64,000 bases of DNA from Telluria mixta (GTDB lineage Bacteria > Pseudomonadota > Gammaproteobacteria > Burkholderiales > Burkholderiaceae_D), in NCBI RefSeq assembly GCF_029223865.1, contig NZ_CP119520.1, positions 6,014,001-6,078,000 of the forward strand, given 5' to 3'. The notes under the pieces were generated by a model, which was given only the letters and a program-made list of their open reading frames with translations, ran no database searches and was not told the DNA's origin. How positions within the stretch are numbered: the first letter of the stretch is position 1; each line of letters starts with the position of its first letter. This document shows, one piece after another, positions 34,924-48,061 of this stretch. Made by a program: the position numbers and the translations under genes.

Positions 34924-36245
34924 ATGCGCAAGCGCCTGCTCTGCATTGCTCCCGACGACGCCCACACCGCCGCGCTCATGACCGGCCCCATCCATGACTG
35001 GGACACCTGCTGCGTGGACAACCTGGGCGATGCGGACCGCGTGCTGCGCGCGGACGGCTATCCCGTCGGGCTGCTGCTGCGGGCGCGCTCCTTGCTGCGG
35101 TCCTTCGACCTCGACGCCTTCCTGCGCCGCCATCCCGACACGCAGTGGGTCGGCGTGTTCCGCCCGCGCGACATGGACCACGGCGCCTGCCGCGACCTCG
35201 TCGTGGAACACCTGCACGACTACCACACGGAGCCCGTCGATCCGGTCCGGCTGGCCTGGACCCTCGGCCATGCCCATGGGTGGGCCGTGCTGCGCCCCCC
35301 GCCCTCGCCGCAGACGCTCGAAAGCGGTGCCGGCCTGCTCGTCGGCCGGGCCGACGCGATGGTCCGCCTGCGCGCGCAGGTCGCGCGCGTGGCCCGGGTT
35401 GACGCCCCCGTGCTGATCTGGGGAGAGAGCGGCAGCGGCAAGGAGCTGACGGCGCAATCCATCCACGCGCAGTCGGCGCGCGCGGGCGGGCCATTCGTGC
35501 CGATCAACTGTGGCGCCATCCCGCCGAACCTGATCCAGTCCGAGCTGTTCGGCTACGAACGGGGGCATTCACCGGCGCCGCGCGCGCCAAGGCGGGATTG
35601 ATCGAGTCGGCCCACGGCGGCACCCTGTTCCTCGACGAGATCGGCGACCTGCCGAAGGACTTGCAGGCGAACCTGCTGCGCTTCCTGCAGGAGAAGACCA
35701 TCTGTCGCCTGGGCAGCACGCGCGCGCTCCGCGTGGACGTGCGCGTGATCGCCGCGTCGCACGTGCAGCTGCAGCGCGCCGTCGTCGCGGGTGACTTCCG
35801 CGAGGACCTGTACTACCGGCTCGCGGTACTGCCCGTCGCGGTGCCGGCCCTGCGCGAACGGCGCGACGACGTCGTCACGCTGGCCGAACATTTTTTCGAC
35901 CTGTACGGCGAGGAGCGGGCGCCCCGGCTGACGGGCTTTTCCAACCGCGCCGTCGCCGCGCTGCTGGACCACGACTGGCCGGGCAACGTCCGCGAGCTCA
36001 TCAACCGTGTACGCCGTGCGCTCGTGATGGCGGACGGACGCCTCGTCACGCCGCAGGACCTCGGGCTGGATGTACCGCTCGTGCTGACGGCCGCGCTGGA
36101 CGACATCCGTGCGCGTACCGAGCGGCTCGCCCTGCGCGAATGCCTCCAGCGCAGCGGCCAGAACGTCAGCCGCGCCGCGCGCGACCTGGGCGTGTCGCGC
36201 ACGACGATGTACCGGCTCCTGAGCAAGCACGGCATGCAGCCGTGA
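34924..36245 (+). CDS. Sigma-54-dependent activator, VpsR-like, module 1 (frameshifted at a G run)
   Basis: About 440 residues if read through. Residues 1-120 look like a receiver-type domain ([12 protein letters not shown], then VGLLLRAR) without a clear phospho-Asp, as in VpsR. Then comes a sigma-54 AAA+ domain: Walker A GESGSGKE (167-174), [13 protein letters not shown], Walker [13 protein letters not shown], and arginine region [19 protein letters not shown] Fis-type HTH ends it ([20 protein letters not shown]). The frame breaks inside the GAFTGA loop at G run 35561-35565; one more G restores it. GGAGATGG precedes the ATG. The sigma-54 promoter at 36446 follows directly, so the target is very probably the Gly-rich gene next door. 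Confidence 0.85.
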
Positions 36246-36445
36246 CGGCCGGCGCCCGTCGTGGCGTCCGGCACTGTCCAGACGAACGCGAGCGTTGGCC
36301 ACGGCTGAGCGACGCACCTGTACCGCCGCGTTGACAGCCTGTCGGCAAGCGACGCCAGCGGAGCTTGCAGATATTCCCACGAGCCTTTCAGAAGAGTCCG
36401 ACCGGGCCGATGGAAATCAATGAGTTGGCGCGCGCAGCCGTGACG

Positions 36446-36460
36446 TGGCACCGATCCTGC
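36446..36460 (+). promoter_or_regulatory. Sigma-54 (-24/-12) promoter of fibre operon 1
   Basis: TGGCACCGATCCTGC has the -24 TGGCAC and -12 TGC elements at exact consensus spacing (consensus TGGCACG-N4-TTGC; the only changed core base is C for T before TGC). It lies 63 bp before the ATG of the Gly-rich gene and just after the gene for its probable activator. The same arrangement recurs at 42577. Confidence 0.75.
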
Positions 36461-36523
36461 GAATGCATGAGAGCCGGTGCGATCGCCGGCATGTCACGGA
36501 CTCACATCAGAGAGGAAAACCGA

Positions 36524-46580: not shown

Positions 46581-46604
46581 CGGATTTTTACCTGGAGAAA
46601 ACCT

Positions 46605-48002
46605 ATGCAAAAAATTCCAGCGCTGTACGGCGTGATTGGTGTCAGCGTGGCCCTGGCGGCCATCCCGGCCGGTGCCCAGTCCGGTCCTGACCTCCTCGAG
46701 CAGCTCAAGATCATGCGACAACAGCTGGAAGAGCAGCGCGCGCGCGTCGACGAACTGGAACGCCAGTTGCGCGCGAGCGGTGTGGCCCCGCCGGCGAACA
46801 GCGCGACGGCGGCGGCACCAATGCAGCTCGAACGGATGCGCGGCACCGGCAACCTGCCGGCGCCCCAGGCCGACGCGCCTGCGCAGGTCCAGGCCGGTCC
46901 GCTCGATGCACCGCCCAGGCTCGCCGTCCCGTTCGCGGATCCGGTCTATCCCGGCCGCCTGGCCCCCCTGCGCGGTACGGGCGGCGCCGGCCAGGCGCAG
47001 GCGCAGGCAAACACCGACGCTGTCGGCCGTCCACCCGCGCCGCGCACGCCGGAAGTCGCACCGATCTTCGAGACCCCGGGCGTCCTGACGCCGCGGGGCA
47101 AACTCGTGTTCGAGCCGTCCGTGCAGTACGGCTATTCGTCGAGCAACCGCGTGGCCCTCGTCGGCTACACGGTGATTCCGGCCCTGCTGATCGGCCTGCT
47201 CGACGTGCGCGAAGTGAAACGCAACACGACGACGGGCTCGGCCACGTTCCGCTACGGTTTCGACAACCGCCTGGAACTGGAAGCGAAGATCCCGTACGTC
47301 TACCGCAGCGATTCGACCGTCAGCCGCGAACTGTTCACGGGCACGGCGGCGGAGCGCGCATTCCAGACGAGCGGCAAGGGCATCGGCGACATCGAGCTGG
47401 GCTGGCGCTACCAGCTGAACGACGGCGGCGTCGACTCGCCCTATTACATCGCCGGCCTGCGTTTCAAGTCGCGCACGGGCCGCGACCCGTTCGAGGTCGT
47501 GACGGATTGCCAGACCCGCTGCGTGGGCCAGAACGTGACGGGGACGGGCCTGCCGCTCGACCTGCCGACCGGGTCCGGCTTCTATTCGCTGCAGCCGAGC
47601 GTGACGTGGCTGCTGCCGTCCGACCCGGCCATCTTCTTCGGCGGCTTCAGCTACACGAAGAACTTCAAGCGCGGCAACGTCTACCGCACCGTGTTGAACG
47701 GCGGCAAGGAATTGCTGGGTACGGTGGAACCGGGGGACGTGTTCGGCTTCAACTTCGGCATGGGCCTCGCGCTGAACGAGCGGGCGTCGTTCAGCATCGG
47801 CTACGACCACAACTCCGTGGGCCGCATGCACCAGAACGGCGTCGTGATCCCGGGCTCCGTGCGCGTACAGCTCGGTACGCTGCTGCTGGGCTACTCCTAC
47901 CGCCTGAAGAACAACCGCACGCTGAGCGTGTCGGTGGGCGCGGGCCTCACGCGCGATACGCCGGACGTCACGCTGATGGTCAGGATGCCGTTCACGTTTT
48001 GA
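46605..48002 (+). CDS. Outer-membrane beta-barrel with N-terminal coiled coil, FapF-like, module 2
   Basis: A 465-residue paralogue of the 39478 protein. Signal peptide 1-25, coiled coil 28-62 (LLEQLKIMRQQLEEQRARVD), then a linker about 55 residues longer than in module 1 and rich in Ala/Gln/Pro. The barrel starts at about 157 (GVLTPRGKLVFEPSVQYGY) and ends LMVRMPFTF. The barrel halves of the two copies are very similar (LVGYTVIPALLIGLLDVREV is identical), while linkers differ. This suggests that the pore is conserved and the periplasmic plug is tuned to its own cargo. Last gene of module 2; a terminator follows. Confidence 0.78.
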   Translation: MQKIPALYGVIGVSVALAAIPAGAQSGPDLLEQLKIMRQQLEEQRARVDELERQLRASGVAPPANSATAAAPMQLERMRGTGNLPAPQADAPAQVQAGPLDAPPRLAVPFADPVYPGRLAPLRGTGGAGQAQAQANTDAVGRPPAPRTPEVAPIFETPGVLTPRGKLVFEPSVQYGYSSSNRVALVGYTVIPALLIGLLDVREVKRNTTTGSATFRYGFDNRLELEAKIPYVYRSDSTVSRELFTGTAAERAFQTSGKGIGDIELGWRYQLNDGGVDSPYYIAGLRFKSRTGRDPFEVVTDCQTRCVGQNVTGTGLPLDLPTGSGFYSLQPSVTWLLPSDPAIFFGGFSYTKNFKRGNVYRTVLNGGKELLGTVEPGDVFGFNFGMGLALNERASFSIGYDHNSVGRMHQNGVVIPGSVRVQLGTLLLGYSYRLKNNRTLSVSVGAGLTRDTPDVTLMVRMPFTF

Positions 48003-48037
48003 GCATCCCCTTTGGCCGCAAGGCGCGGCCACCGACC

Positions 48038-48061
48038 AGGGCCGCACTTGCGGCCCTTTTT
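48038..48061 (+). terminator. Rho-independent terminator at end of module 2
   Basis: AGGGCCGCA-CT-TGCGGCCCT followed by TTTT, 36 bp after the barrel stop. A nearly identical stem, in opposite orientation, serves lpxO at 49721. Confidence 0.88.

Follow-up and report, generated by a model that had tools for sequence, protein, structure and literature searches.

Organization of the tandem modules

Analysis of 64 kb of the Telluria mixta genome (7.44 Mb, one contig), from now on referred to as the window, revealed a tandem pair of six-gene modules on the forward strand at 34924-48002. Each module encodes a sigma-54 activator, a Gly-rich secreted protein (cargo), a small protein, a C39 peptidase, a protein at the position of FapE (E) and a coiled-coil barrel protein (F). 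A sequence-only reading of the window had described the same six genes occurring twice in the same order, and both modules could be confirmed, with cargo proteins of 455 and 744 residues. The modules are a real, conserved and apparently unnamed relative of the Fap system (fapABCDEF; Pseudomonas and others), referred to here as the sister system. All components are collected in Table 1. No Rfam family was matched at gathering scores in the 64-kb window.

Table 1. Components of the two modules and associated sites in the window.
Feature	Position	Strand	Remarks
Activator copy 1	34924..36245	+	VpsR domain and AAA+ sigma-54 domain; two frames, 34924-35601 and 35565-36245
Sigma-54 promoter-like site, TGGCACCGATCCTGC	36446..36460	+	63 nt 5' of cargo 1 gene; strict pattern
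Cargo 1, Gly-rich, 455 aa	36524..37891	+	Conserved C-terminus; signal peptide of Sec type (by eye)
Small protein 1, 132 aa, IQNSGANVLIQN	37953..38351	+	LARQRGG at 38139-38159
C39 peptidase 1, FapD-like	38348..39010	+	Pfam C39 E 1.4e-19; Sec-type signal peptide by eye
E protein 1 (E1), 143 aa	39021..39452	+	FapE position
Proposed C39 recognition/cleavage site in E1, VGPAELDSARGG then Phe	39111..39146	+	Cleavage predicted
F protein 1 (F1)	39478..40704	+	Coiled coil, linker, FapF-like barrel; NCBIfam FapF E 1.4e-41
Activator copy 2	~41038..42373	+	Longest open frame 41261-42373; N-terminal part out of frame
Sigma-54 promoter-like site, TGGCACTGAAACTGC	42577..42591	+	65 nt 5' of cargo 2 gene; strict pattern
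Cargo 2, Gly-rich secreted, 744 aa	42657..44891	+	Open frame
Small protein 2, 142 aa	44951..45379	+	LEHSRGG at 45158-45178
C39 peptidase 2	45376..46065	+	Pfam C39 E 9.4e-24; NCBIfam FapD E 2.2e-40
E protein 2 (E2), 167 aa	46077..46580	+	FapE position
Proposed C39 recognition/cleavage site in E2, VASDTLDDYRGG then Phe	46179..46214	+	Cleavage predicted
F protein 2 (F2)	46605..48002	+	Coiled coil, linker with LERMRGTG (46827-46850), FapF-like barrel; NCBIfam FapF E 3.7e-42

Distribution of the sister system and of Fap-type loci

A homologue of F2 is found in 38 of 61 genomes (T. mixta and 60 relatives) and, at E < 1e-100, in 31 of the 36 same-genus relatives. Loci fetched from relatives show the same gene order. 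Two full tandem modules are present in three of the 36 (G009, G022 and G031), and four other same-genus relatives carry two cargo genes within one module. Further, species-representative genomes were scanned with an alignment of the small protein, yielding 351 stretches and 324 confirmed loci, the best 80 of which are referred to as named loci. Several of these end at contig ends. They contain the C39 peptidase (79/80), E (79/80), F (74/80) and the activator (44/80), with all five components present in 42 of the 80. The gene set, whose co-occurrence in Oxalobacteraceae had been suggested as a check by the sequence-only reading, is thus found together more than by chance, Oxalobacteraceae being among its hosts. 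Of the 79 named peptidase homologues, 76 are longer than 150 residues, and a pattern recognizes the catalytic residues in 75 of these. Named loci are hosted by Massilia, Duganella, Pseudoduganella, Rugamonas, Cupriavidus, Luteibacter, Pseudoxanthomonas and Dechloromonas. Further hosts are Rhodoferax, Thiobacillus, Sulfuricella, Salinisphaera, Accumulibacter, Nitrospira metagenome-assembled genomes and others, the four Nitrospira loci (L127, L128, L135 and L184) lying outside Pseudomonadota. Among the matches listed, all readable source names of homologues are 'hypothetical protein'.

Of 369 genomes of the class searched with FapF, 69 gave a match, and 20 of the stronger matches were fetched as loci. 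Thirteen of them (L104-L116; 135-171 bits to FapF) are of the sister kind and encode C39 and E in 12 of 13 cases, L109, located at a contig end, encoding F only. The other seven (L097-L103; 318-456 bits) are Fap-type. L097 matches FapB (E 1.3e-23), FapC (over cut-off), FapD, FapE (E 1e-22) and FapF, and is the one locus of this group that was scanned, L098-L103 being called Fap-type by gene order, patterns and tree. A Pseudomonas fap operon was found neither in the 369 genomes nor in 4 others (none over the FapF cut-off), nor among the 30 of 652 plasmid records listed. All comparisons with Fap therefore rest on the Fap-type loci and Aeromonas caviae. In a 2025 survey, fap operons had to have FapB/FapC repeats close to the other genes (PMC12822426), so that loci lacking such repeats would be missed.

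Peptidases and barrels are related to FapD and FapF

Both window peptidases belong to the C39 family (PF03412; 70.7 and 84.2 bits, gathering score 22), with the catalytic Cys, His and Asp in place. The likeness to FapD and FapF proposed in the sequence-only reading holds for both components: the NCBIfam FapD model matches the peptidases at E-values of 1.1e-38 (132.8 bits) and 2.2e-40 (138.3 bits), and the FapF model matches the F proteins at 1.4e-41 and 3.7e-42. Neither peptidase reaches the curated FapD cut-off of 330 bits and neither F protein (142.6 and 144.6 bits) the FapF cut-off of 700 bits, and Fap locus L097 likewise falls short of both (280.7 and 456 bits). F2 is homologous over the whole barrel to the solved structure of FapF (PDB ID: 5o67; query residues 152-465 aligned with 21-334 of the chain, E 5.8e-32), which excludes an unrelated transporter family as the source of the barrels. 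The NCBIfam models of the Fil components FilB and FilC match window peptidases and F proteins more weakly than, or equally to, FapD and FapF, and their cut-offs are not reached (FilB 129.8 and 126.2 bits, cut-off 475; FilC 42.5 and 47.1 bits, cut-off 630).

A maximum likelihood tree with midpoint root was computed from 84 C39 proteins, of which 59 belong to the window and fetched loci and 25 were taken from the 79 in named loci. It resolves three branches: Fap-type (8 rows, support 100/95), Fil-like peptidases of relatives (5 rows, 100/99, assigned by likeness to locus L067, which was itself scanned) and the sister system (71 rows, 99/97). By model scores and tree, the sister system does not qualify as Fap itself. 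Within the sister branch, module-1 peptidases (n=4) form a clade (100/99), as do module-2 peptidases (n=4; 83/88), the latter beside single-module locus L051. The tree thus bears out two paralogous modules, as the sequence-only reading had it. Since module 1 branches outside the group formed by module 2 and single-module relatives, the duplication is either older than the species compared or one module was acquired from a relative.

Cargo, small and E proteins

The sequence-only reading had held that the fibre genes are not FapB/FapC, in agreement with the NCBIfam models, which match none of 24 cargo proteins at E <= 1 and neither of the window cargoes. Cargo 1 has no Pfam family at E <= 1, and neither window cargo has a meaningful NCBIfam family. 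The same is true for small protein 1, E1 and E2 (no Pfam family at E <= 1, no meaningful NCBIfam family). The Pfam scan covered these three and cargo 1, the NCBIfam scan additionally cargo 2. No convincing relative of cargo 1 was found among solved structures, and a query consisting of its last 60 residues matched 4 proteins only. Most cargo rows listed from named loci, picked by composition, share a C-terminus of the type AGTFNMSN...QNSG..SLVQQSVNVQANL, and the N-termini in the 63 named loci where a cargo start could be set are mostly MNKTLLASAIALAFG-like. Gly content varies across the named-locus rows listed, the lowest value being 2% (L130, Asn-rich) and the highest 35%, and a Gly-rich middle is therefore common, not universal. 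The cargo looks like one conserved family with a variable middle. An earlier suggestion that a Fap-related system had swapped its cargo is not upheld, since the cargo forms its own family, with a C-terminus found again in most named loci, and the peptidase clade is separate from Fap.

A Gly period of three exceeds shuffles in both window cargoes (lag-3 z 3.7 and 4.3), the longest run being 15 triplets in cargo 2. As the AlphaFold2 (AF2) model of cargo 1 is unusable, this period is a mere hint of a polyglycine-II type fold. A Fap repeat in the cargo C-terminus, alike by eye, was tried and dropped (profile score 15.5, shuffled maximum 15.7). In L106 (93-1004) and L114 (1658-2644), the cargo consists of about four tandem repeats of the NAFxxxxGIxQVQQNNGxNNAMQQ kind, without a Gly-rich middle.

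Profile comparisons, each with 30 column shuffles as null, relate E to the small protein (probability 96.5, score 59.1, shuffled maximum 16.0) and the small protein to the cargo C-terminus (95.9, 48.7, shuffled maximum 24.8), while E and the cargo C-terminus stay at null level (7.5). The match of the E-position protein to FapE, made in the sequence-only reading, is not supported: the FapE model matches none of 47 E proteins at E <= 10. AF2 modeling of E2 with its leader gave a mean predicted local distance difference test score (pLDDT) of 78.3, with a helix at model residues 7-13 and RGG at 14-16. A Foldseek search of this model against PDB folds returned 313 matches at E <= 10, none of them at E <= 0.001, and no convincing solved relative was found for either L097 FapE or the E profile.

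A double-glycine-type motif in E, small protein and F linker

Double-glycine leaders of C39 substrates generally follow a consensus with conserved positions at -12, -7, -4, -2 and -1. E proteins contain all of them (hydrophobic -12, L -7, hydrophobic -4, G -2, G -1), about 20 residues past the signal peptide. Specifically, 119 of 120 E homologues (best 120 of 229, 64-98% identical to E2) have V/I at -12, L at -7, Y/L/F/M at -4, R at -3 and GG at -2/-1, followed by Phe. Only six columns are invariant across E2 and 11 further E proteins (23-69% identical to it), and three of these are R, G and G. The small protein keeps L at -7, R at -3 and GG. Within named loci, LxxxRGG is found in 79 of 79 E proteins (0.4 in shuffles) and LxxxRG in 73 of 80 small proteins (3.4 in shuffles) as well as in 41 of the 60 F proteins (out of 74) whose barrel start was found by pattern, in each case before the barrel (4.3 in shuffles). 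Control counts from the same loci are 12/79 for C39 (shuffled 9.7) and 4/44 for the activator (shuffled 12.6). In loci of relatives and other classes, the corresponding figures are 43/45 for E and 13/44 for the activator (shuffled 11.7). Because family rows are kindred, as are E and the small protein, while no test links the F linker to E, most weight lies on the recurrence of the motif in F linkers. RG is followed by a variable residue (G, T, A, R, K).

The LxxxRG motif is probably a cleavage site of the peptidase, judging from leader spacing and conservation. The new point is that it is common to E, small protein and F linker. Searches of the open-licence literature with limited terms found no paper on the LxxxRG motif or the sister system. 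Similar sequences are present in Fap: FapE of L097, as identified by NCBIfam, reads LSDEELGGLRGRY, and Aeromonas caviae FapE, taken from an unfiltered list of open reading frames, has ELADGELAHLRGRY past its signal peptide. Seven FapE sequences from eight Fap-type loci (none in L103) were selected with a pattern that itself holds the motif and thus are no test of it. Small proteins with a double-glycine-like motif before LWDE were seen in six Fap-type or sister loci (L040, L097, L098, L102, L105 and L114). Nine such LWDE rows were found, of which L085 repeats L105 and those of L135 and L184 are without the motif, and the LWDE protein of L097 has no Pfam or NCBIfam match.

Sigma-54 activators and promoter sites

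The first piece of activator copy 1 matches the Pfam families VpsR (PF20161; E 3.1e-9, 37.0 bits, threshold 23.7) and Sigma54_activat (E 1.1e-24), and activator copy 2 matches Sigma54_activat (E 1.8e-67) together with a Fis-type helix-turn-helix domain. Both are sigma-54 enhancer-binding proteins by domain and GAFTGA motif, the frame of copy 1 breaking at GAFTGA. GAFTGA is present in 31 of 31 activator frames of the window and relatives' loci (window pieces counted) and in 38 of 44 in named loci. One activator per module had been proposed before and is indeed present, albeit frame-broken in the assembly: copy 1 contains one frame change at GAFTGA (~35565) and copy 2 contains two in its N-terminal part. 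In G009, G022 and G031 both activator copies are single open frames. A neighboring gene for a small secreted-type protein (34250-34695) shows an apparent frame change near 34520 in a G-rich run (by eye). Together with the activator breaks, this hints at base errors in the assembly, which are our preferred reading, pseudogenes being the alternative.

The earlier description of the modules was incomplete in that two promoter sites had been missed. The strict sigma-54 pattern TGGCAY-N5-YTGC occurs only twice on both strands of the 64 kb, once 5' of each cargo gene, at distances of 63 and 65 nt. Cargo starts could be set in 63 of the 80 named loci based on the C-terminal pattern and a signal-like N-terminus, and 30 of them have a strict site within 300 nt (0.27 expected), at a distance of 59-86 nt with one exception at 169. 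Strict sites are found in 29 of 40 named loci with an activator in hand and in 1 of 23 without, and seven further loci of the 63 have a loose site. Taking the window and fetched relatives' loci together, 23 of 32 cargo genes are preceded by a strict site and eight more by one with 1-2 changes at 64-73 nt, L038 being without a site. Random stretches of these loci gave 20 of 2000 strict sites and 29 of 2000 within one change. Three of the four same-genus relatives with two cargo genes in one module have a strict site before each.

Fap-type loci have activators of this kind, too. A VpsR-domain activator adjoins operon L097 (Pfam), and like activators were recognized by profile in L098 and L100-L103 or, in part, by eye. 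In Pseudomonas fluorescens PF07, fap is controlled by RpoN and the adjacent sigma-54 activator BrfA (PMC9207406). Sigma-54 control is thus common to Fap and, being already known from BrfA, no novelty of the modules. The activators described as dedicated in the sequence-only reading are sigma-54 activators with matching promoters, yet not peculiar to this system.

Proposed function and alternative explanations

We propose, with a probability of roughly 65%, that each module, under sigma-54 control, serves to export an extracellular matrix protein, using a machine of the FapD/FapF type and being distinct from Fap. The sister system likely works like Fap. A VpsR-domain GAFTGA activator of the BrfA kind would open the -24/-12 promoter before the cargo gene, a step for which BrfA/RpoN control of fap is the precedent and for which domains and promoter sites are in place. 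Sec would then take cargo, small protein, E, C39 peptidase and F to the periplasm, as signal peptides recognized by eye suggest. There, the peptidase would recognize a double-glycine-type leader located behind a Sec signal peptide and serving no ATP-binding cassette (ABC) exporter, and would cut at LxxxRG(G/T/A) in E, small protein and F linker where the motif is present. Cutting would unlock the F pore, allowing unfolded cargo to be exported. Because the small protein shares a related stretch with E and with the cargo C-terminus in profile comparisons, the probable role of E and small protein would be to cap or nucleate the cargo or to anchor it at the surface, where it may form a fibre or coat.

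A more far-reaching form of this proposal, which we regard as tentative and somewhat doubtful, is that the sister system represents a third C39/FapF-type branch beside Fap and Fil, in which periplasmic removal of a double-glycine-type leader from Sec-exported E, small protein and barrel linker would be the switch opening an outer-membrane pore, the Gly-rich cargo forming a non-amyloid matrix fibre of the polyglycine-helix type. If true, the motif would also identify the substrates of FapD in Pseudomonas. The target of FapD was called unclear in 2017, Fap proteins being reported as without a canonical C39 sequence, although GG and GA were noted in FapE and the FapF linker (PMC5557850). According to a 2025 review, FapD is believed to act on the N-terminus of FapE and on the periplasmic portion of FapF (PMC12822426). 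With a canonical-looking motif in sister-system E, and a shorter form in many F linkers and the small protein, the question of the FapD target becomes a test of a few residues, which the motif makes a direct one.

Several observations weigh against the proposed export unit and its leader-like motif. The activators are frame-broken in the assembly, and 26 of the 63 cargo genes of named loci have neither a strict nor a loose sigma-54 site. LxxxRG is missing from 19 of the 60 N-terminal parts of named F proteins, from the small protein of a Massilia subgroup and, more generally, from part of the small proteins in loci of relatives and other classes (present in 31/45 only; shuffled 1.4), where whole F proteins have it in 38 of 64 cases and shuffles in 15.5. 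The small protein departs from double-glycine positions, with A at -12 (118/118) and mostly S at -4 (112). The profile behind the count of 79/79 was built from RGG-bearing E proteins and thus favors the motif; that behind 43/45 was built without RGG selection. The C39 control exceeds its null in relatives and other classes (LxxxRG in 21/60, shuffled 7.2). In 20 of these 21 peptidases the motif adjoins or falls in the stretch of the catalytic His (VL..RGYNHF, VLI.DRGYNHF), the 21st (L100) having it there and in a second place. As these sites sit around the catalytic His inside the folded domain, they are a feature of the fold and no leader. Confidence in the AF2 leader region of E2 is modest (block means 72 and 55), and the AF2 model of cargo 1, with a mean pLDDT of 40.8, gives no usable information. 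The rejected Fap-like resemblance of the cargo C-terminus, the failure of the FapE model (NF058559) to match any of 47 E proteins at E <= 10 with filters on, and a profile score between E and FapE of 29.2 (shuffled maximum 18.2), confined to the motif region, belong here as well.

According to another explanation, the modules are a divergent fap operon building a cross-β amyloid, with the Gly-rich protein as FapC, the small protein as FapB or FapA and E as FapE. This would account for FapD/FapF homology, gene order and the shared type of activator, as well as for the weak likeness of E to FapE at the motif, of FapE to the small protein (23.0, shuffled maximum 17.0) and of the small protein to the Fap repeat (21.4, shuffled maximum 19.4). 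It is made improbable by the lack of FapB/FapC matches in the 24 cargoes and of FapE matches in the 47 E proteins, by the null-level score of the cargo C-terminus against Fap repeats, by FapD and FapF scores far under cut-offs, and by the separate, midpoint-rooted branch (99/97) of sister peptidases. Equally improbable is that the modules are decayed or silent in their host. Three frame changes across two activators and an adjoining transposase-like frame (by eye) would mark a declining locus, but ten of ten structural genes are open and the frame change in the gene near 34520 fits assembly base errors.

It is also conceivable, though rather unlikely, that LxxxRG(G) is an uncut docking or translocation signal recognized by the peptidase or F. 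Some C39-like domains act as chaperones only (PMC5557850, PMC6173800), and a variable residue after RG would suit such a role. The conserved catalytic residues of the peptidases and the spacing of the E motif, which is that of cut leaders, argue for cleavage instead. The same is suggested by Fap of Pseudomonas sp. UK4, where Cys38 of FapD is needed for secretion, a Cys mutant blocking it, and where mass spectrometry reportedly detected neither the N-terminus of FapE (~70 residues) nor the linker of FapF (PMC5557850).

Comparison with known systems

The sister system shares with Fap the C39 peptidase, a protein at the FapE position and the coiled-coil barrel in the same order, as well as a VpsR-domain sigma-54 activator beside the operon (L097). 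It differs in its cargo, a single long protein that is usually rich in Gly and has no recognizable FapB/FapC repeats, in having an additional small IQN protein, in an E protein not recognized as FapE and in its own peptidase clade. Like the module activators, BrfA of P. fluorescens PF07 is encoded next to its operon and a -24/-12 promoter precedes the fibre genes, but brfA lies downstream in reverse orientation whereas the sister activator is upstream in the same direction (PMC9207406). VpsR of Vibrio cholerae shares the N-terminal VpsR domain with the module activators, which, unlike VpsR, have GAFTGA (PMC3162934). Double-glycine leaders of peptidase-containing ABC exporters are likewise associated with the C39 family and share the -12, -7, -4, -2 and -1 spacing of E. 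In E, however, the motif follows a Sec-type signal peptide and has R at -3, and the module is without an ABC exporter.

The Fil system (FilA/FilB/FilC; NCBIfam 'putative pilus system') is found in Acinetobacter. It resembles the sister system in its C39 peptidase and FapF-like barrel and differs in its DUF6160/FilA-like cargo, the Fil-like peptidases of relatives forming the third branch of the tree. A Fil-like locus (L067) is present in the same T. mixta genome (G000:C1 ~512900-523000), beside flagellar genes (by eye), with a FilB-like C39 protein (E 9.1e-64) and a FilC-like barrel (E 1.8e-75), both under cut-off. Its DUF6160/FilA-like proteins have a DxxLxxVxGxxG-like, C39-leader-like stretch directly past the signal peptide. 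Similar C39-barrel pairs were seen in five relatives' loci.

Directly 3' of module 2, the window contains a transposase-like frame (48162-49508; IS4 type by eye). In the Fap-type locus L040, a PAS-GGDEF-like frame (6963-7889; by eye) is located between the FapE-like gene and FapF, a possible link to cyclic di-GMP.

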